Source: Effrenium voratum (taxonomy: Eukaryota; Sar; Dinophyceae; Suessiales; Symbiodiniaceae). From it: a DNA stretch of 64,000 nucleotides. Each line of letters opens with the position of its first letter. Within the stretch, counting starts at the first letter, position 1. A model generated the notes under the pieces. The model did not search any database. It was not told the DNA's origin and saw only the letters and a list, made by a program, of their open reading frames with translations. The stretch is taken from the NCBI GenBank assembly GCA_963377175.1, contig CAUJNA010001724.1, forward strand, positions 695,001-759,000, read 5' to 3'. A program made the position numbers and the translations under genes. Below, piece after piece: positions 2,245 to 21,700 of the stretch.

Positions 2245-2850
<606 letters not shown>

Positions 2851-3025
2851 AACAAACTGAAAAATCGATGGATAAACATGTTACATATGTGCCCATATAT
2901 ATAATATGATTATCTTTGTAGATATAGCATAAAACACAGGCCAAGCACAAACACAAATACCATCACTCAGACACACACACACACAAACTCATACACACAT
3001 AATGACACTAATACAATGGCATAAA

Positions 3026-3160
3026 CTCACAAACACAGACCCAGACACAGACACAGACAAAGGCACAGACAAAGGCACAGACACAGACACAGACACAAAC
3101 CCAGACCCAGACCCAGACCCAGACACAGACACAAACACACACCACACACACACACACATG
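3026..3160. repeat. Hexamer tract (CAGACA/CAGACC) grading into CA
   Basis: Tandem hexamers (CAGACA, CAGACC, AAGGCA variants) followed by a short CA tract. The Asp-Thr and Gly-Ser repeats in the flanking ORFs come from this tract. Confidence 0.9.
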
Positions 3161-3617: not shown

Positions 3618-3724
3618 GCCCCATTCTTCCCAGGGCTCCGGATCTTTCCAGCAAACCTCCGGGGTTTCCGCTCCGGTGTTTGAAAAGAAGCATGGCTGGA
3701 CAGAATGGACAAGGAAGCAACCCA
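3618..3724 (+). repeat. Family I short repeat, diverged copy
   Basis: It shares with the copies at 30966, 56541 and 63316 the order CCCATTCTTCCCAGGG, TTTCCAG-AAACCTCCGG, GAAAAGAAG-ATGG and AAAGAATGG. The terminal CTAGGGG motifs are lost here. Confidence 0.5.
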
Positions 3725-4121
3725 TAGCGCCCCTAGCGCCCCCCCCCCCCGCGTCTTTCGGACCCTTAGCGCCCCTTCGGCTGGCCCGGCGAAAGAGAAG
3801 CGAGCCCCTTGATCCCGCTTCGCGAGGTCGCCACGGCTTCTCTGGAAGCCAAAAGGCGAGCTCTTGAGGCAACGTTGGCACGTCATGTCAAAGGAGGCAG
3901 AACCTGAGAATTCTCCAGTCCTTAAGCCAAAGTCCCAGTCAAAGGAGCCGACTTTCAGCCTAGCCAAAGTCCCGTGTGTTCACCACGACCTCTTCCGAGA
4001 ACCGTTCGTTGCTCGCCGCTTTCAGGACAATGCACTGCCCTTGCCCTTTTCAAGGCTGGCTCGAAGGAGAGCCAGGAAAACAACTCTTCGGATCCATTTG
4101 GCTCGGCGAACTCTGCGAAGC

Positions 4122-4226
4122 CCTGCTAAAAGTGACTAACTTTTAGTGGTATTAATTGGAAAACTCCATAGTTGGCAAAAAACGTTGTTCAGTCCTACCA
4201 GCCCTTGGCTGGTTGCACCAAAGGAT
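4122..4226 (+). repeat. Family F-like short repeat, diverged
   Basis: Related to the family F copies at 4779, 9568, 12059 and 32403. Shared pieces are 'ttttagtggt', 'ggaaaactcc', 'tagttggcaaaaa', 'agtcctacagcc' and a final 'caccaaag'. The left end is eroded. Confidence 0.45.
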
Positions 4227-4386
4227 CCATTTGGGGTGTGGCCCCTGAACTTTTTGCCCAACTCCTGCGGCCGATCTGCCATCCGCAGAGTGGATTGGTA
4301 CCGCAGCGGCTCTGGTCGAATTGCTCGCAGAACGCCTTGGAGCGCCTGGAGTTTTCGCCCCCGAACGGCGCACCTCCCGAAAGATT

Positions 4387-4780
4387 CGATCGGGTACGTC
4401 AGGTAAGTGATCGTAAGCCTGCCTGGTACTCAAAGAACCTACAAACAAGCGGGGTGGGGAGGGAAAAATCAGGTTTTGCAGCTGCTACTCGTCGAAAACC
4501 AGGTTTTTGGTTGAAGAACCTGGTTTTGCTTCCTGAAACCCGTACAAAAATTGTACAAAACCCGGAAAACAACAGTACAAATCCCGTATTTTCCGTATGC
4601 TTTTTGAAACCCAGGTTTCTCCTCGAAAAGCCAGGTCATGTTTTGGAACCCGCTTTTTTGTAGGATTTTGGAGTAGCAGGATGTGATTTTTAACCCACTG
4701 GAGTGAGACTGAACAAAGCATGGCTTAAGTGAGTTATAACCAGGCTTACTAACCACTTTCTCACTCCAATCCCCTTTACT
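4387..4780 (+). repeat. Family C short repeat split by a hairpin-rich insertion
   Basis: The left arm (4387-4435) has 'gggtacgtcaggtaagt' then 'gtaagcctg'. The right arm (about 4731-4775) has 'gagttataaccaggcttac' then 'taaccact', as in intact family C copies (47414, 63449). Between them lies about 290 bp rich in small inverted motifs around AACCAGGTT and TTGTACAA. The simplest reading is an old C element with a later insertion. Confidence 0.4.
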
Positions 4781-4888
4781 CGGTAACTTTCTGCTCCCCT
4801 GCTAAAAGTTTAACTTGTGGTTTAGTGGAAAACCCCTTAGTTGGCAAAAGGTTGTTCAGTCCTAACAGCCATGCAAAATCCGCCAAAG
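4779..4888 (+). repeat. Family F short repeat
   Basis: It runs from 'ctcggtaactttctgctcccc' through 'gctaaaagtttaacttgtgg' and 'agttggcaaaa' to 'cgccaaag'. On the minus strand it starts CTTTG-GC and ends GGGGAGCAG. This copy has GC where the others have GT. Confidence 0.65.
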
Positions 4889-5166
4889 TTTCAGCAGACC
4901 CTCGTGCCGGCCCCGCATGGCGGGGCAAGCACCGGCAGCTTTAGCGAGGGAGGGCGACAGGGCCGTCCAAATTCTGGCGAAAATACCCGAGGCTTGGAGG
5001 ATGTCTCTCGAAAAGAACCTGATCGACTACAAACGCCCCATGCAAGAGAAACAGTCTCTGAATGGAGGCTCCAAATCGGCGAATTCTGACCACCACCATT
5101 TCCGTTTTGGGCTTCCTTTGGGGAAAAAATACAAAACAAACAATGACCTTAGGGTACTTGTCACCC

Positions 5167-5278
5167 ACATAGGGGCCCTTTTGGAAAAATAGATGGCCCT
5201 GGTCAATAGAACAAAACCCAGCTAACCAGTGCCTTCTATATATTTGTTTTAGCAAACTAACCAAAAAAGGACCTATGG
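5167..5278 (+). repeat. Family L short repeat with terminal inverted repeats
   Basis: It begins CATAGG-GCCCTTTTGG and ends CCAAAAAAGGACCTATG, an inverted pair shared with the copies at 6778 and 9453. GTCACC lies just outside both ends and may be a target-site duplication. It abuts a family A copy on the right. Confidence 0.7.
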
Positions 5279-5399
5279 TCACCAGTAGAGAGGATAGAAT
5301 AAGGGTACACTTTTTCCTGTAGTCTATTGTAGGGTTCGGAACCCTCCCAACCAAAAGAGAGTTTCGGTACAAGTTGGCACCAATCGCTGGGGGACCTAG
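5279..5399 (+). repeat. Family A short repeat, left end truncated
   Basis: Core 'cagtagagaggatagaataagggtac', 'tttttcctgtagtctatt' and 'gggttcggaaccctccc', with right terminus CTGGGGGACCTAG intact. The left CTAGGTCCTC is missing and is replaced by the end of the family L copy. Confidence 0.75.
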
Positions 5400-5510
5400 C
5401 TAAGGAACCGGGTACTTGTCACTCACCCTTCACCTCTCAGTCGTTGCTTGCCTGGCAGTCACATATCGATTCTGCACGAGCTGAGCTCCATGGTCCTCAG
5501 TTGCCGGCCG

Positions 5511-5604
<94 letters not shown>
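5511..5604 (+). repeat. Uninterrupted poly(A) run of 94 bases
   Basis: Ninety-four consecutive A residues after GGCCG and before CGACCG. It could be the tail of a retrocopy or SINE inserted on the plus strand, a slipped homopolymer, or a sequencing or assembly artefact. No obvious source gene lies upstream. Confidence 0.9.
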
Positions 5605-5605
<1 letters not shown>

Positions 5606-5655
5606 GACCGCTGCTGCTCGCTTTCGGCTTTCGGGAGGGGGGGGGGGGGGCGAAA

Positions 5656-5783
5656 GCTCCATTTTTGTTTGAAAACGAGCCTGGAAAGAATGATAAAACG
5701 TATGGTTCCGGTAGTGATACATTGCTTTTAAAGCCAACAAGGAGAACAAGGGAAAACAACACATAGTCTGGAGCAAATGGAAG
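5656..5783 (+). repeat. Family B short repeat, diverged
   Basis: Retains 'gctccattttt', 'gcctggaaag', 'ccggtagtgatac', 'cttttaaagccaaca' and 'gagcaaatggaag', matching the order of family B. Confidence 0.5.
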
Positions 5784-6209
5784 CGGAGCTCAAAGCCCGT
5801 TGAGCCAAAGCTCCTGGTGGTATTGAAGTTGTTTCAATGAACAGAAGCCTCAGTTGCGTTCAAGGACCCAGAAATACAACATGATCACCTTTTGGAGACC
5901 TGACGAAACAGGACGAAGCCAGGGGGAAACCAAAAGGTTCAACGGTGAATTCGCTTTGGGCAAGTGAGAAGCAAGCAGGAATGGGAAGCGGGGAAGCGAA
6001 AACGGAGCTGTGTAGCCCTGTTCATTCAGCTGGGACAACCAAAGCTCCATAGGTTTTGAAGCCGTTAACAGTCACCCTCCAAGCCACCTCCTTTTTTGCC
6101 AGGAATGGGGAAAACAAAAACGCCCGTTCCAGTCAATGCAAGCGTGGGGAGGAGAATCCAAGCTCGAGAAGATTTCGCGAACATGACACTTCTTGGGGGT
6201 TCCATGTCT
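5784..6209. other. Unassigned
   Basis: No recognised repeat family or domain. ORFs on the minus strand are under 90 codons and unremarkable. Confidence 0.4.
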
Positions 6210-6272
6210 GATCCCCTGCCAACAGTTTAACTTTTGGTGGATTAGATTCGGAAACCCTACCACTAAACCAAC
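6210..6272 (+). repeat. Family E short repeat, partial
   Basis: Middle of family E only: 'gatcccctgc', 'agtttaacttttggtgg', 'attcggaaa' and 'ccactaaa'. Same orientation as all other E copies. Confidence 0.45.
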
Positions 6273-6426
6273 AAACAACGCGGGTTCAGATGTTTCACCT
6301 TTCTGAAGAGAGTCACTAGAATCCTCCATACCTCCCAGAAGCTTCTCAGGACCCTTCTAAGAACCTGTTCTAAGATTTTACCGAGGGCGACAGAGCTCTT
6401 TGTATCCTTCCAACAGTTTGTTTCTG

Positions 6427-6532
6427 CTTTACTAAGGGAATCAGGGTACCTTTTTTTCTGTAGTCTATTTTAGTAGGGTTCGGAACCCTCCCCGCCAAAA
6501 CAGGAAGAGACAGGGCACTACTGGGGGACCTG
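6427..6532 (+). repeat. Family A short repeat, left end truncated
   Basis: Shows 'cagggtacctttttttctgt', 'agtctattttagtagggtt', 'cggaaccctcccc' and right end ACTACTGGGGGACCTGG. One base of the terminal CTAG is changed. Confidence 0.75.
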
Positions 6533-6694
6533 GCTAAGGAGCCGGATATTTTTTTCTGGGAACCACCCAATTTGTACCCTGGGCCGGTCTGTCCACTCCC
6601 GTCCAGTCGCGGGAGGCGGCAGGCTGCACTCTCCTGCAGGCTCTGCAACAGCCTGCAGCAGAAGCAGCAACCTCAGCAGCCAAAAAGTGGACCC

Positions 6695-6766
6695 GTTTGG
6701 GTGGTACATGTAGCTACAGTGAAACCAAGCTGAAACAACCAGTTTAGAGGCAAACTTATGGTGGAC
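6695..6766 (+). repeat. Left copy of a ~72-bp direct repeat flanking a family L element
   Basis: 'gtttgggtggtacatgtagc', 'gaaaccaagctgaaacaacc' and 'agtttagagg' recur at 6889-6962 with a few changes. The family L element lies between the two copies. Confidence 0.8.
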
Positions 6767-6777
6767 CCTTTTGAATG

Positions 6778-6889
6778 CATAGGTGTCCTTTTTGGGAAAA
6801 TAGATGGATATCCCTGGTAGTTGATTGAACCACCAGGTAAGCCAGGGCCCTCTATGTTTCAACCAAATCAACCAAAAAGGACACCTATG
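6778..6889 (+). repeat. Family L short repeat, best copy
   Basis: The termini CATAGGTGTCCTTTTTGG and CCAAAAAGGACACCTATG are an 18-bp inverted pair. Length is 112 bp. The GT after CATAG could act as a 5' splice site, but no matching AG is fixed at the other end. Confidence 0.85.
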
Positions 6890-6962
6890 TTTGGGTGGTA
6901 CATGTAGCTGAAGGGAAACCAAGCTGAAACAACCAGTTCAGAGGGGATGGTTCAACATGGTG
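6889..6962 (+). repeat. Right copy of the ~72-bp direct repeat
   Basis: Second copy of 6695-6766. The pair is too long to be an ordinary target-site duplication. It suggests a local tandem duplication with the L element inside. Confidence 0.8.
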
Positions 6963-6965
6963 GAC

Positions 6966-8290
6966 CTTCATCGTTGGTAGTTGAATTATGGAATCCCTAA
7001 CAGAGGGCATGAATTTAGCTGTGGCAATCAAGAGGACCCTTTCCTGCCGTGCTCTACAAGGATTTACTAAGATTCTGCTCGGAGCAATCTGCGGCATGAA
7101 GCTCCAAATTTGTATCTGTATTCAGGGCGGGAATGTGGTGTGGCCCTTCCTTGCTGCAATTGCGACTAGTGGGTTTTTCTGTTGATGCGACTGGCAGGGA
7201 CAACCCCAAAAAACAAACAGAGCGCACCACCAATCGGAAACCACTGGCTAGATGACTCAGCGCTTGGATCAGGCGCACGGCATGTAGTGCACCTGTCTTC
7301 TGAGACCCCAAAACCATTGACCACTGATAATTGGCGTGGGGGCGCCTCGCAAAGTGCAACTTCATTCAAACCAAGCAATCCCCGTCAATGCAGCCAACCC
7401 TTCACCTGTTTAAACTGGTATCATGATGAGTGATGATGATCAACACTCAAACAATACGTTTGTGTTTCTGTATGCACAAATGTGTATGTAGAAATGTACA
7501 ATATGTAGCAATGGTGGCCACGCTTGTCGCGCAACGTGCCGGAGAATGATTCCGGGCCCGCATTCGTGGGGTTTGGCCTAAATTTGGACCCAGACTGGGG
7601 AAACGCCCATGATTGAAGCAAGCCAACTCCCCAACGGGTTGCCACATTAAACTCCTCGGATATCTTCTGTTGAATGTGCAAGGCTGAATGAAAACGTGGT
7701 TGCGAAAGCAACATCCACAACATTGCTGCCATTTGACAATGTGTCAAGCTTACGCATCCTCACAAATGGCTGGCTTCAAATAGTTTGTTGTTGAGCTGCA
7801 CCAAATACAAGTCAAACGGACACGAAGACAAACATACGCCAGTACCCACGTCCATTGCAGCAAGTCACAGAAATGCGGCAGGTGTCGCCTGAGCTGGACA
7901 AGAGAACAACAAGCAGGGGCCCTTACAGGGTGCTCAAACTTGCCGCGCCTTTCGACTTTGGCGCAGTCAGGCTTGGGGAACATCCCCCCCCACGAAAAAC
8001 TCGGCACTCGTTGCCCTGCAACCCGCTTTCCTTGTTTGCCTGAGGCTTTCTCCCACCCAGAGGCTCCTGGCTTCGGCTTTCAATGGGAAGACCCGACCCC
8101 TCCATTCACCTCGCTTCGGTGTTTGGGGGTCTCAAGACCAGGTTGTTTGAAGGTCCTAAATCAATCGGGAGCCTCTGGGGATGTTGCAAGGCATTTCCCC
8201 CAAGTTCCATCCCACTCTCCACAAACTCCATGTCTTCTCTGACCATGTCCCAGTGAACGTCATTGTTTTGGGGAAGAGTGCCCCGTCCTT
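6966..8290. other. Unassigned
   Basis: Mixed, moderately GC-rich DNA. Several ORFs of 60-110 codons on both strands overlap each other, with no recognisable domain. I found no short-repeat family with intact ends here, so it may include real exons I cannot resolve. Confidence 0.3.
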
Positions 8291-8298
8291 TCTCAAAC

Positions 8299-8357
8299 CC
8301 TCACTCACTCACTCACTCACTCGCTCACCTTTATTTTCTTCTCTCTCTCTCTCACTC

Positions 8358-8390
<33 letters not shown>
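8299..8390. repeat. (CACT)n and (CT)n microsatellites
   Basis: A short CACT tract (8299-8325) followed by a CT tract (8337-8390). Ser-Leu repeats in the plus-strand ORFs come from it. Confidence 0.9.
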
Positions 8391-8392
<2 letters not shown>

Positions 8393-8405
8393 CTTGGATG
8401 CTAGT

Positions 8406-8530
8406 TGAGTCAAAATCAAAACCTGGCAATCAACTGGTCTACTCAGAACCATATAAAGATCTTACAAGAGCGGCTGCACCCCTTTATGATTAGGGACTAT
8501 CCCGTACCCAGGTTTTGATTGTGGCCTCAG
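8406..8530 (+). repeat. Family H short repeat
   Basis: Inverted termini around CAAAATCAAAACCTGG and CCAGGTTTTGATTGTGG. The interior 'ccagaaccat-taaag', 'gcggc-gc-cc' and 'tttatg' matches the copies at 9001 and 63610. Confidence 0.75.
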
Positions 8531-9000
8531 TTCAGCAAAGCTAACAGCAGTCGGGCCACTTCGGTAATCATTTCAACTCGGAGATCCGAGCCGTAAAGTG
8601 TCTGGGCCAAGCAAAAGGCACGGGCGAGAGTCCGTCACCCAGAGCACAAGAGACAAGGGCTGCTCGGTGTTCTTTTTGTTCCTTCTTTTCTTCCTCTTTT
8701 CTCGGGGAACTCCCAACATGGATTTCGGTTTTCGGTTTGGTTTCCCATTAACACCAACAAACAATTGCCCACCCCCCCCCCCGGAGGCACAATATCCACG
8801 CTTCCAGGGCAGTGGCCCGGTGCATCCGCTTTAAGTTCTCTGCATGGGAACTTCAAGAGTATTCCGCATTTGTTGTTGCATGAGTGTTACCCCCTACGCA
8901 AAATACAAACTTTTTCCAGGGCATGTTTTGGACAACCTGGTTTTTCGAGGTAAATACCTCCTTTTCTAGTAGAGGGTCGACATGATTCCCCAAAGTCGGG

Positions 9001-9140
9001 GGCAATCAAAACCCGGTATTAAACTGGTCGTAATCCCAGAACCATGCTTCAATAATTCAGAAGGCGGAGATCCGCGGCTATTTATGGCTGGGATTGGCCC
9101 TTAGTAACCTTTATCTACCCGGGTTTTGATTGTGGCTCAC
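9001..9140 (+). repeat. Family H short repeat
   Basis: 'caatcaaaacccggta' at left, 'cccgggttttgattgtggc' at right. The plus strand has 'agtaacctttatctaccc' before the right end, which resembles a branch point and pyrimidine tract. Confidence 0.75.
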
Positions 9141-9452
9141 ATGTCTTTTTCTGAACCGTCCTTAAAAAAGGGCCGCGCTCTTTGTAAACAACAAAATTTG
9201 TGGGTACATAGGTGCACACCCCCACTTATATATCTTTTGATGAAACTGAATGTGACAGAAATGACACTTGAGAAGAAAATGACGGCATATGGCTTGTTGT
9301 CTTGCCTCATTGACAAGTTGTTAGCCTGATTTCAGGTCCTGCAAAGAGCGACAATTGAGCCACGGAAACTGACGCGCAAAAAGAACCGTCAACCAAGACG
9401 GTAAACAGCAACGCCAAGGGGCGTTTCTCAAAATCATCCAAACAGATCTTGT

Positions 9453-9565
9453 CATAGGTGTCCTTTTGAGCAAAACAGATGTGTTTCCGTGGTAGACGAA
9501 TGGCATAAAGCCAATCTAAACCAGTGCCCATCTACTTCTCATCAAGAGGATCAAAAGGACACCAT
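9453..9565 (+). repeat. Family L short repeat
   Basis: Termini CATAGGTGTCCTTTTGA and TCAAAAGGACACCATG. Length 113 bp. It is separated from the next family F copy by only a few bases. Confidence 0.8.
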
Positions 9566-9567
9566 GT

Positions 9568-9675
9568 CTCAGTTGCTTTCTGCTCCCCTGCTAAAAGTTT
9601 AACTTGTGGTTTAGCGGAAAACTCATTAGTTGGTAAAAAGTTAAAGTCCTAACAGCCAAGCAAAGTGCACCAAAG
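9568..9675 (+). repeat. Family F short repeat
   Basis: Starts 'ctcagttgctttctgctccc' and ends 'gtgcaccaaag'. Read on the minus strand it runs from CTTTG-GTGCAC to AACTGAG, so it has GT and AG at its ends. No inverted termini are evident. Confidence 0.75.
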
Positions 9676-9806
9676 AGATCTTGTCCTGTACTCATTCGGG
9701 CCCGAACCCCTTCGGAAGTCGCACGCGCACTTTTCTCCATTCGCTTGGGAGTCCTGTCCTGCGAATCCACGAGCTGGCGATGAGGGGATGGGAGCTCTGT
9801 GGAAAC

Positions 9807-10041
9807 CAGGTCCTCCAGTACAGAGGTTAGAAAAAGGGTACCAGCTGTTTTCTGCGGTCGATTTTAGTAGGCTGCGCAACCCTCCCAACCAGAAAAGGTC
9901 AGAGGTTAGGGTACTTGTTTTCCTCTTGTTTCTTTCTTCTTCTTGTTTTTTCCTTCTTTTTTTTTTCCGGTGGTCTATTTTAGTGTCGGAATTCCCTCCC
10001 AACCAAAGGAACGGTGCAGGGCACCAATCGCCGGGACACCG
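9807..10041 (+). repeat. Composite of two family A copies
   Basis: One left end (9810, 'ggtcctccagtacagagg'), then two successive core blocks ('ctgcggtcgattttagtagg' at about 9855 and 'tggtctattttagt' at about 9970), and one right end near 10041 ('caatcgccgggacacc'). A C/T-rich tract sits between the blocks. This is consistent with insertion or recombination between two copies. Confidence 0.6.
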
Positions 10042-10105
10042 GAGGGCTCCAGCGGCTCCGAGTGCAATGGTTGCAACGACCTTTTGATCAACCCCACCAT
10101 GGGTC

Positions 10106-10190
10106 CACTGCTCAGTTCTTCGCTGACCACTGCAAAAAAAGGGAACCCTTTTTTGGGGCTTGGACCATTTTTGGTGGGCAACATGAGTAG
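10106..10190 (+). repeat. Family Y short repeat
   Basis: 'gctcagttcttcgctgacc', 'tgcaaaaaaagggaaccc', 'ttggggcttggaccattttt' and 'gggcaacatgag' match the nested element at 59931-60047 in order. Confidence 0.6.
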
Positions 10191-10261
10191 AGCTAGGTCC
10201 AGTTAAAGAATGTATATTTTAGTGTTTGCCTTCACTTTAAAATGTATCCTAAGTCTACCCC

Positions 10262-10380
10262 AGATGGGTCCACTGTGTGTCAAGGTGAGACGCCTCTGCA
10301 AGAAGCAGAAATCAGCTTTTGTGGGTCCAATTCGGAAAATCCGGTGCCTGTTTCAACCAAAAAGTTAAAGTCCCCAAAGA
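10262..10380 (+). repeat. Family Q short repeat
   Basis: 'gatgggtccactgtgtgtc-aggtgagac', 'cctctgcaag', 'cttttgtgggtccaattcgg' and 'caaccaaaaagttaaagtcc' are shared with copies at 28116, 45370 and 58350. All four have the same orientation. Confidence 0.65.
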
Positions 10381-10769
10381 TATGTTGCCATGTAGCCATA
10401 AATTTGACTCGGCATGTGGTCACGGAACATTGAGATAATTGGCAAATTCGAAGACATCGTTGGGGAAATCATTGAGAAGGTTGTGGGAAGCTGTGGATTT
10501 ACCCAGACTTGCCTAGGTTCTTACAACTGCAGTGGCCGTCCCCCAATAAATATGGGAAGCTGTAGATTTGCCAGACTTGCTTTTTGTTCTGCGGACTCGG
10601 GGTGCATGAACTGGGGGGCTTGTATATACTTACCCCTTAAAACTCCAAGCCCTGGGGAAGTTAATCTTTTACAGACATATAGCCCATGTTACCCCACAAA
10701 AGTTGAGAAAAGTTGTGTTTTTAAGAGGTAAGTATATTCTCCAGTTCACGGATTTCAGTGCATGGTTCT
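10381..10769. other. Unassigned
   Basis: Contains an imperfect local duplication ('gggaagctgtggattt-ccagacttgc' near 10487 and 'gggaagctgtagatttgccagacttgc' near 10553). No recognisable gene. Confidence 0.4.
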
Positions 10770-10843
10770 AATAGAGTAAAAAGGGTGGTGAATTCACCTA
10801 CCCCAACATGGGAACCATTGGTTTTGACAACCACAGCCATTTG
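10770..10843 (+). repeat. Family G fragment
   Basis: Right half of the long G subtype: 'aaagggtggtg', 'cacctacccca', 'gaaccattggttttgac', 'ccacagccat'. The left end is absent. Confidence 0.5.
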
Positions 10844-11140
10844 ACCACACCCCATATCTCTTCAAACATGGCAAGCCAACAGGTCTTGGTCCATGCCATG
10901 CGATCGGACCGAGACAACCAGCGAGGAGAAAAAGGAAGGAATCCCACAGTGAATCGTTGGACAGCGCGGAGAGGCAAGCACGCAAGCAAGCATTGGTATC
11001 AAAAGCGGGCAAATAGGCATTCTCGTGTGTTCCAAGATGCTGGCTCCGGACCGAGTTTGAACAGTTTGGGCCAAAAGTTGTTCGAAGGAACGGAGAATGA
11101 GGTGCCAGCCGGAAGGTAGCCCCCACTTGATGGTTAGTTG

Positions 11141-11190
11141 GGTATGGGTCAAAATTAAAGCACCAGGGCACCGCAGGTTTTGGCCCATGT
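11141..11190 (-). repeat. Family G fragment
   Basis: 'gtatgggtcaaaattaaagc', 'accagggcaccgcaggtttt' is the reverse complement of the left part of the copy at 52216. The other end was not recognised. Confidence 0.5.
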
Positions 11191-11665
11191 TCCTTTTTGA
11201 GTACCTTTTTGACACACTCCCAGTGTTTTGCGACACACGATTAGGAATGCGTAGGGGACAGGCCGCCTGGTCAAAGTCCTGCATGGGATCTCAAGAAGCC
11301 ATCCATAGAGACACAAACTGTGACTGATTAGCACCAAACGAGATCGAAGCACATCTCCGTGAGGTGGCGGGACGATCTGCCTGAATACGAACATGTTGAC
11401 GGCGATTGTCGCGAAAGCTGCGATGCAGGGTGAGCAAGGCAAAGCGCTTGAGATAGGGAGCGAACAACAATCAGGAATGTCATGGACACGATGCCAAAGT
11501 CTGAAGAATGGCAAAACGAGAACACGCTATGCGCTTGCTACAAAGGGCACCTAGCGCCGCCTTGTGCCCCCTTTAGAGGGTATCCCGGTGACTTCCCTGC
11601 TTCGATTCTAGATCTACCTCTCAAGTGTTTCATTCTGACAGATGAGAAAGAGGTTTGTGGGGGTT
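11191..11665. other. Unassigned
   Basis: Several overlapping ORFs on the minus strand (up to 140 codons) without a recognisable domain. Parts may be exons of the minus-strand gene proposed at 11919-12799, but no splice-consistent join could be settled by eye. Confidence 0.3.
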
Positions 11666-11780
11666 GATCAGTATTCTGTTCGGCCCCCAGGTTTGACCAT
11701 GGGTATTTTTTCTTTCATGTGGCTGAAATTGCAAGTCTTTTTAGTGGCTTCCCAACCAGTGGTCATCCTATGTATACCGG
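11666..11780 (+). repeat. Family V dispersed repeat
   Basis: 'ttgatcagtattctgttcgg', 'tgaccatgggta-tttttc', 'tggcttcccaaccagtg' and 'gtcatcctatg' match 23118-23229 in order at roughly 70 percent by eye. It could be a transposable element or a duplicated exon. Confidence 0.5.
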
Positions 11781-11798
11781 ATCTTGTGATCAACCAAT

Positions 11799-11918
11799 GT
11801 GGCCATGGGTCAAAAGCCCGTACCCCCAGTGAAAATCCCAATCCTCACAAAAATAGACTAAAATGGGTGGTGCACCTACCCGAAAAGGGTAGCATTGGTT
11901 TTGACCCACAGCCATGTG
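11799..11918 (+). repeat. Family G short repeat, candidate intron
   Basis: Inverted ends GCCATGGGTCAAAA and TTTTGACCCACAGCC. It lies immediately downstream, on the minus strand, of the exon-like segment 11919-12058. In the minus direction a GT is available (CT-GTGGGTC) but a paired AG is not clear. In the plus direction it has GTGG at the start and CACAG at the end. Confidence 0.65.
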
Positions 11919-12058
11919 AAGAAAGCTGAGTTGAAACCCTCAGATTCCGTCGCCCCTCTCCAATCCACGCCTAGGCCGGCGCGTCGCAGCATCGCCTCCT
12001 GAACCGCTTGCCTCGGTCTTTCAGAAGCGCTTAAGCTGACTGTGGTGACGCCAAACTC
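11919..12058 (-). CDS. Candidate internal exon 3 of an unnamed minus-strand gene
   Basis: Open from the AACTGAG end of the family F element at 12059 to the family G element at 11918. Translation starts EFGVTTVSLSASERPRQAVQ and continues with AMLRRAGLGVDW, an ordinary soluble composition. If the F element (12059-12161) is removed from GT to AG, this segment joins the preceding exon-like segment 12162-12283 in phase 0 without a stop. I do not recognise the product. The downstream splice site at the G element is not fixed. The alternative is chance open frame in GC-rich DNA. Confidence 0.45.
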
Positions 12059-12161
12059 CTCAGTTGCTTTCTGCTCCCCTGCTAAAAGTTGAACTTGTGG
12101 TTTCATGGAAAACCCATTCGCTGGCAAAAAGTTAAAGTCCTAACGTCCAACCAACATGCAC
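12059..12161 (-). repeat. Family F short repeat, candidate intron (GT-AG)
   Basis: On the minus strand it begins GTGCATG after CTTTG and ends AGGGGAGCAGAAAGCAACTGAG. It is 103 bp. The same boundaries recur in the copies at 9568 and 32403. Removing it keeps the flanking frames in phase 0. The 3' region has 'tttcatgaaaccacaag' and 'ttcaacttttagcagg', where TTCAAC could serve as branch point. Confidence 0.6.
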
Positions 12162-12283
12162 CAAAGAAACAGCCACGGAACGGCCAATTTCTGTCGGGTG
12201 GTTCACCAAACAACCGTCTTCCGTCAAACACTGTTTAGGAAACACCCAAAAGGAAATGCTTGTTCTGGGCCCCAGGTGGGCAA
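12162..12283 (-). CDS. Candidate internal exon 2 of the same minus-strand gene
   Basis: 122 bp open segment between the family O and family F elements. It enters with two bases of a split codon and leaves in phase 0. The translation includes AHLGPRTSISFWVFPKQCLT and VNHPTEIGRSVAVSL. Both junction phases fit the neighbours (phase 1 from 12439, phase 0 to 12058). The acceptor chosen is CAACAAG at 12284, which sits inside the O element's right flank. No domain is recognised. Confidence 0.45.
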
Positions 12284-12438
12284 CTTGTTGGACATGGGAA
12301 GTGATCAAAAGGTCCCATGAACATGGGGTGACCAGTAGGGAAACCACCCAAAGATGACTCAAACACCACTAAACGGGACAAGATACCCATGGCTCATTTT
12401 GGGGCCAGGAATATTGATCGACATTGATCAATCCCCAC
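12284..12438 (-). repeat. Family O short repeat, candidate intron
   Basis: On the minus strand it starts GTGGGGATTGATCAATG and ends near GACCTTTTGATCAC...CAACAAG. TTGATCAA-type sequences form the inverted ends. A second copy lies at 40854-40950. Splicing it out joins 12439-12714 to 12162-12283 in phase 1. Confidence 0.5.
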
Positions 12439-12714
12439 ATTCAAAACAAGTCGAGGGAAGCAGGCTTTCCCACGCGTTTGCCGGACATACTCGACCTGTC
12501 GCCAAAAGAGTATGTTCGATCAAACCACACCCGTAGCCATGCTGATCCACGTCCATCCGCCAAAGGACGGAGAGAATGCATGCTCCATGAAGTGCTCGTG
12601 CTTCCTTCAGCAATCTCGATGAATACACCTTGTTGATATCCAGGGCAAACCCCGAAACCTCAGAACGCCATTTGAACGAAGGTACCTCTTCATCTACCAG
12701 CAAGTTCAATTCCC
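12439..12714 (-). CDS. Candidate internal exon 1 of the same minus-strand gene
   Basis: 276 bp open segment bounded upstream by GAGCAG of a family E/F-like element (12715-12798) and downstream by the GT of the family O element. The translation runs through ELNLLVDEEVPSFKW, VSGFALDINKVYSSRLLKEA and MDVDQHGYGCGLIEHT without a stop for 91 codons, with a mixed, protein-like composition. I recognise no family. It enters in phase 1 and exits in phase 1. It is the longest non-repetitive exon candidate in this cluster. Confidence 0.5.
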
Positions 12715-12798
12715 CTGCTCAAAGTTTGACTTTGGATGGGTTAAATGGAAGCTACCCCTAAACCCTAAAAGCTTAAATTTTGAAGGGATAGCTGGCAC
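12715..12798 (-). repeat. Family E/F-like short repeat, candidate intron
   Basis: On the minus strand it begins GTGCCAGCTATCCC, like GTGGCTCCCAGCCATCC of family E, and ends CTTTGAGCAG. Length 84 bp, shorter than most E copies (110-125 bp). The upstream frame is open for 13 codons back to a TGA, so the preceding exon must be short or begin downstream of that stop. Confidence 0.5.
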
Positions 12799-13019
12799 CA
12801 ACTACTTCTGGCTGGATTGTTCCTGACTTGCTACTTCAACATGCGCTCGAAACTGCGATGCTCGGACGCCGGGCTTGCTGAATGGACGGTCAACCACCCA
12901 CACCTTAGTCACTTCACCCAAAGATGTCTGTAAACAGGAGGGAAGACAAAAAAGCTCGCAGACCCCCAGGATCCCCTCAAGATGTAATCAGAAATGCGAA
13001 GCATTCTATGGGAGTTGTT

Positions 13020-13376
13020 TGCCGCATGTGCGTGCGCGTGCGCGTGCGCGTGGGCGTGGGCGTGAGCGTGGGCGTGGGAGTGGGCGTGGGCGTGCGCGTG
13101 GGCGTGCGTGTGCGCGTGGGCGTGCGCGTGGGCGTGGGCGTGGTCGTGGGCGTGGGCGTGGGCGTGGGCGTGGGCGTGGGCGTGGGCGTAGGCGTGGGCG
13201 TGGGCGTGGGCGTGGGCGTGTGCGTGTGCGTGTGCGTGTGGGTGTGTGTGTGTGTGAGTGGGTGCGTGTGGGTGTGGGTGTGGGTGTGTGTGTGTGTGGG
13301 TGCGTGCGTGCGTGCGTGCGTGCGTGCGTGTGCGTGCGTGTGCGTGCGTGTGCGTGTGCGTGTGTGTGTGTGTGTC
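13020..13376. repeat. (GTGGGC)n and (GTGC/GT)n hexamer-dinucleotide tract
   Basis: About 350 bp of GTGGGC and GTGCGC variants grading into GT repeats. It produces large spurious ORFs (up to 338 codons) on both strands, rich in His-Ala, Thr-Pro, Val-Gly or Arg-Gly. Confidence 0.95.
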
Positions 13377-13611
13377 TGTACATGAAAGGGTTGAAGTGGG
13401 CATCCTTGGAAACAACAGCCACCAGAGGATAACAAACCAAAGGGTAAGTGCGTAAATGAGCTTGAGATTGGGATCCGCATGCAAGCCGAACTGTGGCCTC
13501 AAAAGTAGTCGCTCGCTCGTGGATGGGCACGGGCGAGCAGTGAGGGCCGGATTGTTTTTGTTGTTTTTATTTTTTTTATTAAAAAAAATATTTGGCACTG
13601 GGAGGCAAACC

Positions 13612-13671
13612 TTGCATTTGCTTAAGCCACTGGAAAACAAATATTCCTTTGAAACCAACTGGGGAAAATCA
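13612..13671 (+). repeat. Family B short repeat, partial
   Basis: 'gcatttgcttaagccactgg' and 'ctttgaaaccaactgggga' of family B. The right end is missing. Confidence 0.5.
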
Positions 13672-14614
13672 AAACATACTAGGAAAATGAAAGAAACAGG
13701 CATGGTCGACCTTACCGTGACGTTTACAATGGCTAAGTCACAGTCGTTGCATGACTTCGAGCCCGAAATGACCATGGTCTCCATGGCCGGTAGCCACACA
13801 GAGGTAGGCAGTGGCAGGTCTCGGAATTGGAGCCCCAACATGGCAGCAATCAAAATCCCACGGGAAGACAACACACTACACTCGCGAGCCTGAAGCTTGC
13901 TTTGCCACTGGCAGCCAAGGCTCATTCATAGCAACCTGAGGCGAAAACATGCCTGTCAATCCAACAGCCTCTCCAATGCAAGGGCCAGGCTGGACTTGCT
14001 TGAACTTGACATCGAATTGAAAGGCAAAACTGTTAAACACGCCCTCAAGCGAAGAGCTTACTTCCTCCCCAATCGCATTTCGCATGTCGTGGCCTATCTG
14101 CAAAACTCGCCCTGGCCTGTTCCACGCTGTGGTTTGTGCCCACTTGCAGGACTGCGATTTTTTGCAAGCTTCATTCTGTTCGGTTCCTCAAAGACCTTAC
14201 GTGCTGACAATCAACCGTCCTAGCTGTGGGAATATCTTATTGGGAATCCCCCTTGGAGACTCCAAAGTTTTGAGGTGTCCGACGCTGACGCGTCGAATGG
14301 CTGCCAACATGGCCAATGTGCGGCCTGCTCATGTGCTTTGGCCCCGCCTTCTCCACGCTGAGTGGGGGCTCCCCCTGCAAGGCAAAACACGGCAAAGCGC
14401 CGGACCCCCAATCGAAATTTCGCTGTGCCATGGGAAAGCAGAGGCACCAAACAAAAGGCCACATGCTTGCGATGAGAGAAGCCTGGCGTCGAGCACATGG
14501 CATCCAAACATAGCAATGATCAGTGCAGCTGTTTCAGCTGAAAGCAATTAATTGTGACACTGTCAGCAAACAGAAGATTCCTTTGTATACAAGGCCAGCT
14601 TGCAAAATGTCGAT
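13672..14614. other. Unassigned; a minus-strand frame at 13876-14103 looks protein-like
   Basis: The minus strand is open from about 14103 to 13876, with GVFNSFAFQFDVKFKQVQPG and IGEAVGLTGMFSPQVA. The composition suggests an exon, but no family is recognised and no short repeat fixes its ends. The rest shows overlapping ORFs without domains. Confidence 0.3.
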
Positions 14615-14720
14615 TATGACGATGATGATGCTGATGCTGCTGGTGCTGGTGGTGCTGGTTGTGCTGGTGGTGCTGGTGGTGCTGGTGGTGCTGGTGGTGG
14701 TGGTGGTGGTGGTGGTGGTA

Positions 14721-14757
<37 letters not shown>
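14615..14757. repeat. Trinucleotide tract (GAT, GCT, GGT blocks)
   Basis: Blocks of ATG, GCTGGT, GGT and finally (GCT)n. The minus-strand ORF reads poly-His/Gln and the plus-strand ORF poly-Val/Leu. Both are artefacts unless expressed. Confidence 0.95.
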
Positions 14758-14759
<2 letters not shown>

Positions 14760-15199
14760 GTTAAAATGATGCGGACCAGGGCCGGAAGGGAGACGTTCCA
14801 GCTCTGAGTCTTTTTCCGTCTCTCTCATTGGTTTTTGCGAGACATGAATGGGTTACTGACTCGTGCTGTTCCCAGCTCTGAAAACGAACCCTCAAAGCCA
14901 GACTTTGCTCGAGATCTCCCGCGAATACATCATACTGTGCTAGTTGTTTCGCCGTATTTCACAAGCCCCTGGTACCTTCGTGGCAGCTCGCGAAGGCATC
15001 GAAGACTGAGGCCTCCCTTCAGAAAAAGAAAGCAAAAGACTTCACAGTTCCTCTTAAAGAGGCCCTTTATTTGGCAAGGATGCAAAATGGCACCAAAGGA
15101 CTCTGTATCAAGGACCCTTGTCTGACAAGGATGCAAAATATATATACATTGTATACATGTATACATAATTCTATATATATATATATACACGTGTATATA
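14758..15199. other. Flank of the retrotransposon, AT microsatellite at right
   Basis: No gene recognised. From about 15139 the sequence is an AT-rich tract (TATATACA variants) into which the copia element appears to have inserted. Confidence 0.5.
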
Positions 15200-15380
15200 T
15201 GTTAAGATACATCCACCTGTACATGACACTGCCCATTTGTACATCAAGGCCTTGAGCCTACAAGTAGGCTACAGAAAGACTACAGCCCTTGCCCGCTGGA
15301 CAACAAGCGCCGAGCTGTCACATCACAGGTTTGACACATCTCGCTCATCAGGTGTTTACACAGTCAGTCCCACTTTTACA
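15200..15380 (+). repeat. Putative 5' LTR
   Basis: It starts TGTTAAGATAC and ends CTTTTACA directly before a tRNA-like primer-binding site. Copia LTRs typically begin TG and end CA, and 181 bp is within the known range. No second LTR is present in the window to confirm the boundaries. Confidence 0.6.
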
Positions 15381-15397
15381 TGGTAGCGGAGCAGTGG
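15381..15397 (+). other. Putative primer-binding site
   Basis: TGGTAGCGGAGCAGTGG resembles TGGTATCAGAGC, the site complementary to initiator methionine tRNA in many copia elements. It begins right after the putative LTR end. Confidence 0.65.
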
Positions 15398-15479
15398 TCC
15401 CTGGAACACGATCCACGATCACAACCCAGGGTGAGCTCCAACATACACCCACGGGTTCAGGTACACAGTAGTGAGCAAC

Positions 15480-16520
15480 ATGGCACAACAACAGCAACAG
15501 CAACAGGAACAGGAACAGCAGCTGGAAGGAACCCACAAATATAAGATATCACCACCACGGTTCACAGGAGAATACAACACCTTCGAAGAATGGAAGTACA
15601 AGATGACAGCATACTTGGGACTTCAAGACCCAGCATACAACAGACTGCTGAAGCAGTCAGAGCAATCAAAAGGACAAGTTACAAACGACCAACTTGAGAA
15701 TGCAGCACCTTCACAAGCAGTAGCAGAGCAATGAGTATAACTGAGCAACAACTTGCACTACCTCTTGGTGAGCACATGCCATGGACCAGCATCTACAATC
15801 TGCAGACAAAACATGCAAGGCAACGGATTTGAAACATGGCGGCTGATACATGCAAGGTACTCCATACCACTTGGTAAAAGGAGCATTGGGTACCTTACAC
15901 GGCTGCTAAAACCACAACTTGATGAACAGAAGTTCGAAGAGAGCTGTGCAACATGGGAGTTGCAACTCTCCAGATATGAACAGGACAACAACACACACTA
16001 CCAGATGCAGTCAAGATTGCAATACTGCTCAACGATACAAAAGGACCACTACAGCAACATCTACAGCTGCAAGCAGGAAACATCACAACATATGCACAGA
16101 TCATATCAATGGTGATCGACTACTACAGAGCGACAGCATCATTCACCAGGCTACAAGCAATCACATCAAGCAACAATAGCCAAGGACCAGCGCCGATGGA
16201 CATAGGAGCAACATGGTACAACAAAGGTAAAGGAAAGAAAGGCAGGCGCAAGGGCAAAGGAAAGCACAACAAAGGCAAAGGCTATGGCGGCTACGGGAAC
16301 AACTACAGCTACAACAACTACAAAGGAGGAAAAGGCAATCAACTACCGGTTGGACAAGGAAATTCATTCAAACGACAACAAGGATATGGCAAAGGAAAAG
16401 GATACAGCAACAAAGGAAAAGGCAAAGGAGCAAAAGGAAAACACGCAACAAATGTTTGCTACAGATGCGGACAACCAGGACACATGGCCAAACAATGCAG
16501 AGTGGCGATTTACAACTGCG
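15480..16520 (+). pseudogene. gag: Copia Gag, broken by stops and a frameshift
   Basis: The capsid-precursor Gag of a Ty1/copia element, which would package element RNA in cytoplasmic particles. ATG at 15480 is followed by a Gln-rich start, then ISPPRFTGEYNTFEEWKYKM. The frame is stopped at 15732 and 15738, resumes in the same frame (GNGFETWRLIHARYSIPLG), and shifts near 16000. A Gly-Lys-rich tail with a PMDIGA motif follows, then a CCHC zinc knuckle, CYRCGQPGHMAKQC, at about 16456-16500. The homology stops just after the knuckle, where the sequence flips to antisense pol. The Gly-Lys-rich tail is, from memory, common in dinoflagellate copia elements. Confidence 0.85.
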
Positions 16521-17382
16521 ATTGCTGATGTAGAGGCTCTCCTGTGCTGCTGTACCAATTGCGTACAGTTCTGATTCTGCTGATGAAAGTGCTATTGTTG
16601 CTTGTGTTCTGCTGCCATAGTGTACTGCTGCTCCAAAGAAGTACAGTACAAATCCTGTTGCGCTTTTCCTGGTTGTCTCGCATGATGCCCAGTTGGCATC
16701 TGTGTATGTGTCAATGTTCAGTGGAATTCGCTTGTCCTGTGTTTGTATCTTTGGTCGCAGGTTGTGTCGCATCTACCTTGTTCCGTTGAGGTATCTGATC
16801 ATGTGCTTGAGCTTCTTGTTGTCAAGTTGTGTTGGTGCTTGTAGTGATCTTGCTAGCTCTTTTGCTCCATAGCTGATGTCTGGTCGAGTGTATGATAGCC
16901 ATTGTATCTTGCCAACAAGCCGCCTGTATTGTTTGTGCTCTAGTAGTGCTTCATCTTCTGCCGTACCTTTCATGTGGCACTCCTGTTGACGGTGCTGGGT
17001 TGCATGTGGTCATTCCTGACTCTTCCAGGATGATGTCAACATAGTTGTTGTTCAAGCTGATGTCAATGTAGTCGCCTTTGTGTGAGATGTTCCTACCAAG
17101 GAAATGTAGTGTTGATCCAACTGTTAGGTCGCCTGTGTGTCTCAGCAGGACTTCTTTTTGTATCCTGCTGAAGAGCGTGTTGATGATGCTCTGTACTCCT
17201 ATGAAGAGGAGGTCGTCTACATAGATCATGATGTAGACTTGGCAGTCTTTTGATCTGTAGACATTGCTTTCTGTTGTGCATCTCACAAGTTCAAGTGTGA
17301 CTGTGAGAATGTGTGCTATGTGGTCTTGCCATTGTTTTGGTGATGATCGTAGGCCATAAATGGCTTTGTTCAGCCGCCACAT
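16521..17382 (-). pseudogene. pol: Copia reverse transcriptase and RNase H, truncated and broken
   Basis: On the minus strand, LNKAIYGLRSSPKQWQDH and the catalytic IYVDDLLF motif mark the reverse-transcriptase palm. After a frameshift near 16973 comes WLSYTRPDISYGAKELA (connection region), an in-frame stop at 16773-16775, and RNase H motifs (DTYTDANWASC, ALSSAESELYAIG). The RNase H stops at about 16527, next to the gag junction. The fingers part of RT, integrase and protease are absent. It faces gag, so no single transcript could produce a normal Gag-Pol. Confidence 0.9.
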
Positions 17383-17397
17383 TATGTCACTTTAACA

Positions 17398-17567
17398 ATA
17401 TATATATATATATGTATACCTGGTTCGCAGTGCGTGTGCAGCGCACATCTCTCCGCGCCTCGTGCAAAGAGCAAGGATCGGGCTCCACAAGGGCCTGTTG
17501 CAGCTGCGAAAGCTCAAAGCGGCAGGCAGGTCTGGGAAAAGCCTCCGGAAGCTGGTTTGATACTCTA
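17398..17567. other. AT microsatellite and unassigned flank
   Basis: TATATA tract (17398-17416) continuing the microsatellite on the other side of the copia insertion, then unassigned sequence. Confidence 0.6.
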
Positions 17568-17684
17568 CTCACTTCCTGAGTTGATGGTTCAAAACAAGCC
17601 CACACTTCTCGTTTGCCAGTCAAATGGTTTGTTTGTTTTTTGCTTTTTTCAAAAAGCTTAAAGTTCAGGAACTCAGGAAGTGAG
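17568..17684 (+). repeat. Family Z short repeat with inverted ends
   Basis: Ends ACTCACTTCCTGAGTT and AACTCAGGAAGTGAGT form a 16-bp inverted pair, about 117 bp apart. Right-end fragments recur at 48781-48811 and about 61945-61970. Confidence 0.75.
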
Positions 17685-17802
17685 TCTAGGCAAAACACAA
17701 GCCTCCTTGCCACATATTGTCTGTTGATGTCGAAAAGTTGAAAGCCAATGGGCCAAGAACCCTCGAAATACGCCAAGGACTCAAGGAGATGCAAACGCAC
17801 AT

Positions 17803-17909
17803 CTTCCATTTGGTTAAGACCCCTGGAAAAATATATTATTTCCAGTAGTGAAATCGATTCCCTTTGAAACCAACAGGGAAAAATAAACAATATTCGTAAG
17901 CAAATGGAG
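17803..17909 (+). repeat. Family B short repeat
   Basis: Ends CTTCCATTTGGTTAAG and CGTAAGCAAATGGA are an inverted pair. The interior has 'cccctggaaaaa', 'ttccagtagtgaaatcgatt' and 'gaaaccaacagggaaa'. On the minus strand the right end reads GTCTTAACCAAATGGAAG, with a branch-like CTTAAC before AG. Confidence 0.85.
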
Positions 17910-18719
17910 ACCTTGATTTCCTATTGGTTGATTGGTGTTGCACCTTGAGCTGTCCGCTCTCAAGCAGAGGCAAACGCCGAATGGTTCTTTGGGATCAGTC
18001 TGGCTAGTATGGTTTGCAGGGGTAACCCAACCCCTTTTTGCTGGGATCAACATGTGCGCGAAATGCTGCTGAGGGAGAAGCGACTTCTCAAGGCTCTTTG
18101 CCCTTCAGCAGGGCAGCACTTAATAAGGGTCTGCAAACATTTGGGTGTGGCTCAAAGTTGAGAAGGTCTAGGGTTGCGCATGTCTTAGTCTTTGGTCCCA
18201 TTTACCAAGGCGCCATCCTGCTACATTTGTTTGACAGCCATTTGAACATGTTCATCTTTTCAACTCGACCTCCCTTCCCCAGCAGCTCGGCAAAAAAACA
18301 AAAACAGGCCAAACTGGTTGTTTACAACTCAAACTCGGACCACACCCAACAAATATACCTTATACAACCTCTTTCAGGGGTAGCACGTATGTATACATAT
18401 ATATATATATATATATTTACACCTATATATATACATATACATATGTATATATATACATATACATATACCTATATATATATATATGCACGTGCTTTAGGGC
18501 TAAATGTGGAAGTGACAAGAACAAGTCCCAGGTCTCCAGCGAGTGACTCAGCCAGCGAGTCTTGGGCTTCGGCAGTGCCCTCCTTTGGCCGGCAGTTCTT
18601 CCACAGGACCGCCGTGCCCGCCTGCGCCAAAAAAACCCGCGGCTCCGTCCCCCCCAAAAAAACCCGCGGCTCTCCCAATAATGGTGGGTACAGAAAACAA
18701 CCAAGGTCTGCTTATTACT
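17910..18719. other. Unassigned with an AT microsatellite (about 18388-18485)
   Basis: The TATACA/TATA tract at 18388-18485 gives spurious Tyr-Ile ORFs. A duplicated 'aaaaaaacccgcggctc' occurs near 18630 and 18656. No gene recognised. Confidence 0.4.
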
Positions 18720-21700
18720 TTTGTATTTGTTCATGCCAGGCACCTGCTTCAACCTGTACTTGTTCATTCAAGGCACCTGCTTCAATCTGTATTTGTTCAT
18801 TCAAGGCACCTGCTTCAATCTGTATTTGTTCATCCAAGGCACCTGCTTCAATCTGTATTTGTTCATCCAAGGCACCTGCTTCAATCTGTATTTGTTCATT
18901 CAAGGCACCTGCGTCAACCTGTATTTGTTCATTCAAGGCAACTGCTTCAATCTGTATTTGTTCATAGCCAAGGCACCTGCTTCAAACTGTGTTTGTTTAA
19001 TATCAAGGCACCTAGCATCAATCTGTAAATTGTTATCAATCAAGGCACACTGCATTCAATCTGTATTTGTTCATCCAAGGCACCTGCTTCAACCTGTTCT
19101 TGTTCATTCAAGGCACCTGCTTCAATCTGTATTTGTTCATTCAAGGCACCTGCTTCAATCTGTATTTGTTCATCCAAGGCACCTGCTTCAATCTGTATTT
19201 GTTCATCCAAGGCACCTGCTTCAATCTGTATTTGTTCATTCAAGGCACCTGCTTCAATCTGTATTTGTTCATCCAAGGCACCTGCTTCAATCTGTATTTG
19301 TTCATACAAGGCACCTGCTTCAATCTGTATTTGTTCATTCAAGGCACCTGCTTCAATCTGTATTTGTTCAGTCCAGAGGCACCTGCTTCAATCTGTATTT
19401 GATTCATTCAAAGTGCACCTGCTTCAATCTGCATTTGTTTCATACCAAGGGCACCTGCTCTCAACCTGTTCATTGTTCCATTCAAGGACCCACTGCCTTC
19501 AATCTGTTTTGTTCATTCAAGGCACCATTCATCAATCTGTATTTGTTCAAAACCAAGGCACCTGCTTCAATCTGTATTATTGTTCATACCAAAGCACCTG
19601 CTATCAATCTGTAATTTGTTCACGGGCTGCCACCTCTTCAACCAGTATTTGGTATCCTATCAATGTTGCGTGTTGTATCCAATCTGTATTTGTTCATCCA
19701 AGGCACCTGCTTCAATCTGTATTTGTTCATTCAAGGCACCTGCTTCAATCTGTATTTGTTCATGCAAGGCACCTGTTTCAATCTGAATTTGTTCATTCAA
19801 GCCTGCTTCAATCTGTAATTGTTCATTCAAGCCACCTGCTTCAATTTGTATTTGTTCAATACCAAGGCAACCATGTCTTAACCTGTTCTTGTTCTTTCAA
19901 GGCACTGCTTCAATCTTTCACCAGATCCCATAAGGACCAGACCCAAAGGGGGCAAACGCGGGCAATCTGTAATTGTTCATCCAAGGCACCTGGCTTATGC
20001 AATTGTATTTGTTCATCCAAGGCACCTGCTTCAATCTGTATTTGTTCATTCAAGGCACCTGCTTCAATCTGTATTTGTTCATTCAAGGCACCTGCTTCAA
20101 TCTGTATTTGTTCATCCAAGGCACCTGCTTCAATCTGTATTTGTTCATTCAAGGCACCTGCTTCAATCTGCATTTGTTCATCCAAGGCACCTGCTTCAAC
20201 CTGTTCTTGTTCATTCAAGGCACCTGCTTATCTGTATTTGTTCATTCAAGGCACCTGCTTCAATCTGTATTTGTTCATCCAAGGCACCTGCTTCAATCTG
20301 TATTTGTTCATCCAAGGCACCTGCTTCAATCTGTATTTGTTCATTCAAGGCACCTGCTTCAATCTGTATTTGTTCATTCAAGGCACCTGCTTCAATCTGT
20401 ATTTGTTCATGCAAGGCACCTGCTTCAATCTGTATTTGTTCATCCAAGGCACCTGCTTCAATCTGTATTTGCTCATCCAAGGCACCTGCTTCAATCTGCA
20501 TTTGTTCATCCAAGGCACCTGCTTCAATCTGTATTTGTTCATCAAGGCACCTGCCTCAATCTGTATTTGTTCATGCAAGGCACCTGTTTCAATCTGAATT
20601 TGTTCATTCAAGGCACCTGCTTCAATCTGTATTTGTTCATCCAAGGCACCTGCTTCAATCTGTATTTGTTCATTCAAGGCACCTGCTTCAATCTGTATTT
20701 GTTCATCAAGGCACCTGTTTCAATCTGAATTTGTTCATTCAAGGCACCTGCTTCAATCTGTATTTGTTCATCCAAGGCACCTGCTTCAATCTGTATTTGT
20801 TCATGCAAGGCACCTGCTTCAATCTGTATTTGTTCATCCAAGGCACCTGCTTCAATCTGTATTTGCTCATCCAAGGCACCTGCTTCAATCTGCATTTGTT
20901 CATCCAAGGCACCTGCTTCAATCTGTATTTGTTCATGCAAGGCACCTGCCTCAATCTGTATTTGTTCATGCAAGGCACCTGTTTCAATCTGAATTTGTTC
21001 ATTCAAGGCACCTGCTTCAATCTGTATTTTTTCATCCAAGGCACCTGCTTCAATCTGTATTTGTTCATTCAAGGCACCTGCTTCAATCTGTATTTGTTCA
21101 TGCAAGGCACCTGTTTCAATCTGAATTTGTTCATTCAAGGCACCTGCTTCAATCTGTATTTGTTCATCCAAGGCACCTGCTTCAATCTGCAATTGTTCAT
21201 TCAAGCCACCTGCTTCAATCTGTATTTGCACCTGCTTCAATCTGTATTTGTTCAGTCAAGGCACCGACTTCAATCTGTATTTGTTCATGCAAGGCACCTG
21301 CTTCAATCTGTGCTTGTTCATTCGAGGCACCTGCTTTAATCTGTATTTGTTCATTCAAGGCACCTGCTTCAATCTGTATTTGTTCATCCAAGGCACCTGC
21401 TTCAATCTGTATTTGTTCATGCAAGGCACCTGCTTCAATCTGTATTTGTTCATGCAAGGCACCTGTTTCAATCTGAATTTGATCATTCAAGGCACCTGCT
21501 TCAATCTGTATTTTTTCATCCAAGGCACCTGCTTCAATCTGTATTTGTTCATTCAAGGCACCTGCTTCAATCTGTATTTGTTCATGCAAGGCACCTGTTT
21601 CAATCTGAATTTGTTCATTCAAGCCTGCTTCAATCTGTAATTGTTCATTCAAGCCACCTGCTTCAATTTGTATTTGCACCTGCTTCAATCTGTATTTGTT

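Follow-up and report, generated by a model that had tools for sequence, protein, structure and literature searches.

Likely introner-type elements, mostly in one orientation, surround a probable chance open frame in a 64-kb window of the Effrenium voratum genome

Introners of dinoflagellates have been described as belonging to many diverse families, both in the accessible portion of a review (PMC11453091, reviewing Roy et al. 2023) and in that of an account of Prorocentrum (PMC10666404). For Effrenium voratum, the accessible text of PMC11114475 reports introner elements in 5% of genes, introns of ~1 kb, and an intron share of 92% within a gene. We analyzed a stretch of 64,000 nucleotides from this species (contig C1724:695001-759000, hereafter the window) and searched it against the genome (1,155,904,702 bases in 3699 contigs). 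We consider it probable that, in this dinoflagellate-type genome, the region is a non-exonic part of minus-strand genes and most likely intronic, that it is packed with introner-type non-autonomous cut-and-paste elements, and that a 178-codon frame lying between these mobile repeats is open by chance.

At a threshold of E<=1e-5, the window contains 75 repeat loci in 18 families, among them A (14 loci), B (7), E (6), F (5), D (4), G (3) and T (2). These and other families have conserved ends, mostly inverted repeats, and the elements are ~100-130 bp long with terminal inverted repeats and 4-bp target duplications. Across 24 copies of families A, B, E and F, for which the borders were set by hand, the 4-bp flanks were identical in 8 and matched at three of four positions in 5 more, where identity is expected in 1 in 256 per copy. 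For F at seven other loci in the genome, the flanks were identical in three cases and matched at three of four positions in another three. An empty site could also be reconstructed: the F copy at 32403-32513 (minus strand) lies within an A-family element and is flanked by the duplication TCTC, and removal of F together with one copy of TCTC makes the A sequence whole again. Judged by eye, the duplications of D and G seem to be longer than 4 bp, with an apparent 10-bp duplication for G at 37294, and the H copies at 30959-31082 and 56540-56664, which represent both orientations, have inverted ends without mismatch and are flanked by duplications of 5 bp (ATCAA and ATGTT).

The first-pass annotation, which was based on the letters of the window, had noted common boundaries for F copies including those at 9568 and 32403. 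We confirmed common edges and end-to-end alignment, with pairwise identities of 81-92%. All four good window copies of F end in G(T/C)...AG, including the minus-strand copies at 9568-9675/9676 and at 4779-4888, the latter with GC at the donor place. Genome-wide, a first look gave 2112 candidates for F and 4858 for G; all 40 scored matches of F were nearly full length at 89% identity or more, as were 40 scored matches of G at 90% or more. Like MITEs, the elements are short and without coding capacity, with inverted ends and a target duplication of fixed length. Like introners, they combine target duplications and inverted ends with near-identical, end-to-end copies at unrelated places (F and G). 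The window repeats are likely to be introner-type elements. Of the earlier proposal that these repeats act as introns, the introner-like character (inverted ends, 4-bp duplications, co-orientation) held up, but the role of whole intron at the locus singled out for it was not supported.

The orientation of the elements is strongly biased. Repeat pairs in the window (E<=1e-5) lie on the same strand in 118 cases and on opposite strands in 13, and seven families (with 14, 7, 6, 5, 4, 3 and 3 loci) are wholly co-oriented, accounting for 42 of 42 copies; orientation is mixed in H, K, O and a fourth family. When compared with conserved genes elsewhere in the genome, the window minus strand matched the sense rather than the antisense strand of kinesin loci by 78:9, with 42 and 4 of these matches coming from the single locus L054, and that of a myosin gene by 12:0, so the minus strand of the window is probably the sense strand. 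Within the kinesin and myosin gene loci, elements of families A, B, D, E and G were in sense in all 31 matches (22, 4 and 5 in three comparisons, the last with the myosin gene) and in all 11 loci holding any, with the reservations that 10 of the 31 lie in L054, part of which may be outside the kinesin gene, and that matches within one gene are not independent. Families T, K, H and O in the same loci gave 10 sense and 9 antisense matches, some of them pieces of one element (Fisher p 3.7e-5 for 31:0 vs 10:9). In these gene loci, A, B, D, E and G accordingly have the splice-compatible orientation of introners. Family F had no copy in the kinesin and myosin gene loci examined; at other loci in the genome, its A, B, D, E, F and G neighbours were concordant in 9 of 9 cases. 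Near-identical copies of G, those closest to the window copy, depart from this pattern: where they have an A, B, D or E neighbour, they were discordant with it at three of five loci (L003, L006 and L008) and concordant at two.

We tentatively propose, with somewhat less than even confidence, that the mutually unrelated families A, B, D, E, F and in part G are locked in sense inside long introns, next to unlocked families of similar build, and that introns grow by sense-only insertion, brought about either by transcription-directed insertion or by an almost complete loss of antisense copies. We found no description of such a lock in the titles and passages covered by our literature search, which left out the majority of subscription journals and with them Roy et al. 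2023.

In the mechanism we favor, short cut-and-paste elements would insert with 4-bp target duplications, and within genes, copies of certain families would survive only in sense. The likeliest cause would be that the locked families carry strand-specific RNA-processing signals, such that wrong-way copies are removed by selection; T, K, H and O, lacking such signals, would stay in both directions. Strand-specific signals appear the likeliest cause because the unlocked families share the same introns. This mechanism would have the window minus strand transcribed and the elements able, now or formerly, to be spliced. Acceptor-like tracts in the window number 30 on the minus and 18 on the plus strand, compared with 11 and 9 after shuffling, which is no more than suggestive. 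Pyrimidine tracts at the 3´ ends of the elements did not separate the families, and we found no signal common to the locked families. Splice-like end signals do not separate locked from unlocked families, which leaves our explanation of the bias unproved.

The sense bias could instead be set at insertion, by transposition machinery that acts in a fixed direction on transcribed or replicating DNA, without later selection. Orientation biases left by selection in introns are usually mild, and the absence of antisense copies among the 31 gene-locus matches is stronger than that. The acceptor-like tracts of A and B, moreover, lie on opposite strands, so one signal cannot explain both. We regard insertion bias as a serious but less likely alternative; the near-even orientation of T, K, H and O in the same genes and the discordance of G with its A or E neighbours at three of five loci speak against it.

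Whether elements constitute introns was examined at L054 (contig C3616), the sole gene with mapped exon borders, which were obtained via its paralogue L009 (contig C1155). The L009 kinesin is open over long stretches without introns and has three stops in the matched part; it is probably a processed copy, useful for mapping exon borders. The L054 introns, ~800-1100 nt long, hold B and K elements in their interior, and the real splice sites, read by eye, have GC-AG borders, preceded by AG and followed by G. Shorter introns in three further loci (L039, L044 and L053) had no match to the element library. An E element in L032 and a G element in L011 are situated near an exon end, the borders there being provisional.

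Within the window, the best candidate for a true introner is the B-family element at 61982-62093 (minus strand), which has a perfect 4-bp duplication, GTAC, and directly follows an exon-like segment at 62222-62094 (minus strand; score 12.6, with 10.8 on the plus strand nearby). The duplication supplies GT and the element ends in CAG, and excising the element restores the reading, with a stop 12 codons on. In a scan of the whole window, exon-like segments were in weak excess on the minus strand (13 vs 6 on the plus strand at score 10; 18 vs 16 at score 8). The 90-nt flanks of 31 elements gave no clear coding signal, being open in 51 of 62 cases on the minus and 45 of 62 on the plus strand, with a random fraction of 0.73.

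The locus that the first-pass annotation had offered as the clearest case, a minus-strand mini-gene at 11799-12799 with a repeat for each intron, is probably not a gene. Its geometry is as described: the three segments (proposed exon 1, 12714-12439; exon 2, 12283-12162; exon 3, 12058-11919) are present, GT...AG is found at both cuts, 12438/12284 (155 nt) and 12161/12059 (103 nt), and the joined segments make up 538 nt with one stop-free frame of 178 codons, in phase 1 at the O junction and phase 0 at the F junction. The description of the cuts as lying at repeat edges fits the F-family element at 12059-12166 (minus strand; 4-bp flanks matching at two of four positions), where the 103-nt proposed intron corresponds to F without the 5 nt at its start. 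It does not fit the O-family element at ~12301-12423 (plus strand; edges approximate), which lies inside the 155-nt proposed intron, ends ~15-17 nt short of the cut on both sides and is antisense to the model, as a member of a family of mixed orientation. Upstream of exon 1, a diverged E-family element (12694-12802; sense on the minus strand; 4-bp flanks matching at two of four positions) overlaps the first ~20 nt of that exon, the rest of which is unique in the genome. Exon 3 is likewise unique in the genome and is followed on the minus strand by a G-family element (11799-11915, minus strand) and a second O-family element in sense (11665-11790, minus strand).

We compared the codon use of the joined frame with a model built from kinesin genes of the same genome, in which 95 exon matches to the Pfam kinesin family were obtained; 49 of these were entered and 2 with stops dropped, leaving 47 exons and 11616 nt with a third-position GC of 0.74. 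Scored leave-one-out, 26 of 26 kinesin genes were above 0 (range 0.006 to 0.528), and the joined frame, at -0.115 on this model drawn from a single gene family, was below all 26. The score is near those of open segments elsewhere in the window, where 237 minus-strand segments of at least 60 codons average -0.235 (sd 0.118), the highest reaching 0.173. Of the proposed exons, exon 1 scored -0.151 and exon 2 scored -0.21, neither being coding-like. Exon 3 is the only one above 0; its score of +0.06 is within the range of real genes and counts against a non-coding reading. A lineage-specific gene that evolves fast could present the same picture.

Homology searches pointed in the same direction as the codon score. 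The joined peptide, the proteome search for which had been proposed as a check of the model, had no match in Pfam, in PDB or in a protein collection searched twice, in one case with a query padded to 370 residues by guessed pieces and scored over 104-313. In the genome, the joined 538 nt likewise had no relative, either with or without introns: of five matches, three correspond to the locus itself and the other two are short and within exon 2. Six-frame Pfam scans, with stops read as X, covered 1-1370, 2850-18380 and 22300-64000 on the minus strand and 2850-18380 and 22300-56670 on the plus strand, and the matches above the curated cut-offs were confined to two of retroelement type, RVT_2 on the minus and a zinc knuckle on the plus strand. 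The RVT_2 match (E 3e-15) is at 16993-17391 (minus strand) and the zinc knuckle is in a gag-like open frame at 15435-16528 (plus strand); from their sequences, these appear to be two Copia-type remnants in opposite directions. Elsewhere in the window, a 33-bp tandem array of ~107 copies spans 18722-22227, with several reading frames open throughout.

We next consider how readily such a frame arises. When the same exon and intron lengths were slid over the unmasked window, the joined frame was open at 252 of 39164 positions on the minus strand, in 9 clusters that include the proposed mini-gene itself, and at 453 of 39163 positions on the plus strand, in 10 clusters. With dinucleotide-shuffled exons and fixed borders, 114 of 20000 trials were open; when borders were free to move by ±20 nt, the count was 82 of 2000 with GT donors and 106 of 2000 with GT, GC or GA donors. 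The frame is weakly more than chance. The 75 repeat loci of the window offer many places to look, so one such frame beside them is unsurprising, and the window holds 44 stop-to-stop frames of at least 150 codons, many in simple repeats. The codon-position asymmetry of the joined frame is unremarkable (equally high in 684 of 5000 shuffles); its high position-1 G counts against a chance frame.

About half of exon 2 consists of another repeat, P (~12168-12236, minus strand), which occurs at two other loci (87-88% and 81% identity). At one of these (contig C1491; L070, 1501-1677), P and the whole of F are matched to 12228-12057 of the window with 82% identity and the same junction, and the copy differs in length by a net 4 nt and has the mini-gene frame interrupted by a stop; at the other (C1446), P occurs without F. 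Near neither copy was there a match to exon 1 or exon 3. To judge from these alignments, P and F seem to have been copied or moved as one unit, which would account for the lack of a 4-bp target duplication for F at 12059-12166.

These observations bear on the possibility that the locus is a real, lineage-specific minus-strand gene, with F and O as introns (introners) and E and G as flanking introns. Such a gene would fit the phase-consistent openness at exact GT-AG cuts, which few shuffles reproduced, the G(T/C)...AG ends of F, the likely sense of the minus strand and a further open piece upstream of exon 1, at 12918-12825, and introners with 4-bp duplications and inverted ends have been published for Symbiodinium, as given in the accessible part of PMC9860276. 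We consider it improbable all the same: the codon score is below that of every real gene compared, no homologue was found in the searches above, exon 2 is half repeat with its P-F junction recurring at C1491 in a broken frame, O is antisense with edges off the cuts, and F is without a duplication. The claim that each intron here is a repeat is not supported, with codon use, homology, the repeat in exon 2 and the chance rate all against it. A decayed gene or duplicate, in which the P-F stretches of C1491 and the window descend from one old exon plus F and are now pseudogenes, would fit their 82% identity across the junction and the first ~11 codons of the frame, which are alike in both, but is equally hard to credit given P without F at C1446, the length difference and stop in the C1491 copy, and the unmatched exons 1 and 3.

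With a chance open frame between mobile repeats as the preferred reading, the locus carries a caution, namely that 178 open codons between repeats are insufficient to call introns. If the sense lock holds genome-wide, the orientation of repeats alone would mark the transcribed strand in a genome whose long genes are difficult to locate, and it would become testable whether introner-type elements choose their direction or splicing weeds out the wrong one.

MITEs usually insert in both directions. The window elements resemble them in being short, non-coding and of high copy number, with inverted ends and a target duplication, and are unlike them in that, in the loci examined, a single direction is fixed for families A, B, D, E and F. 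The accessible portions of the dinoflagellate introner accounts (PMC11453091, PMC10666404 and PMC11114475) do not mention that copies within long introns are biased towards sense. The introners of Amoebophrya, according to the accessible part of PMC7789003, are alike in having inverted repeats and direct repeats of 3-5 nt, but their splice borders are for the most part non-canonical and their families lack an inverted motif of their own, whereas the window families have fixed termini. Closest are the introners of Symbiodinium microadriaticum, which, as described in the accessible part of PMC9860276, are likewise short, with 4-bp duplications, inverted ends and many families. In the annotated genes of that species, the element makes up the entire intron, whereas at L054 elements lie inside introns of ~1 kb. 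The candidate B element at 61982-62093 would follow the same scheme as those introners, with its own 3´ splice site, the AG adjoining the duplication, and a borrowed 5´ site.
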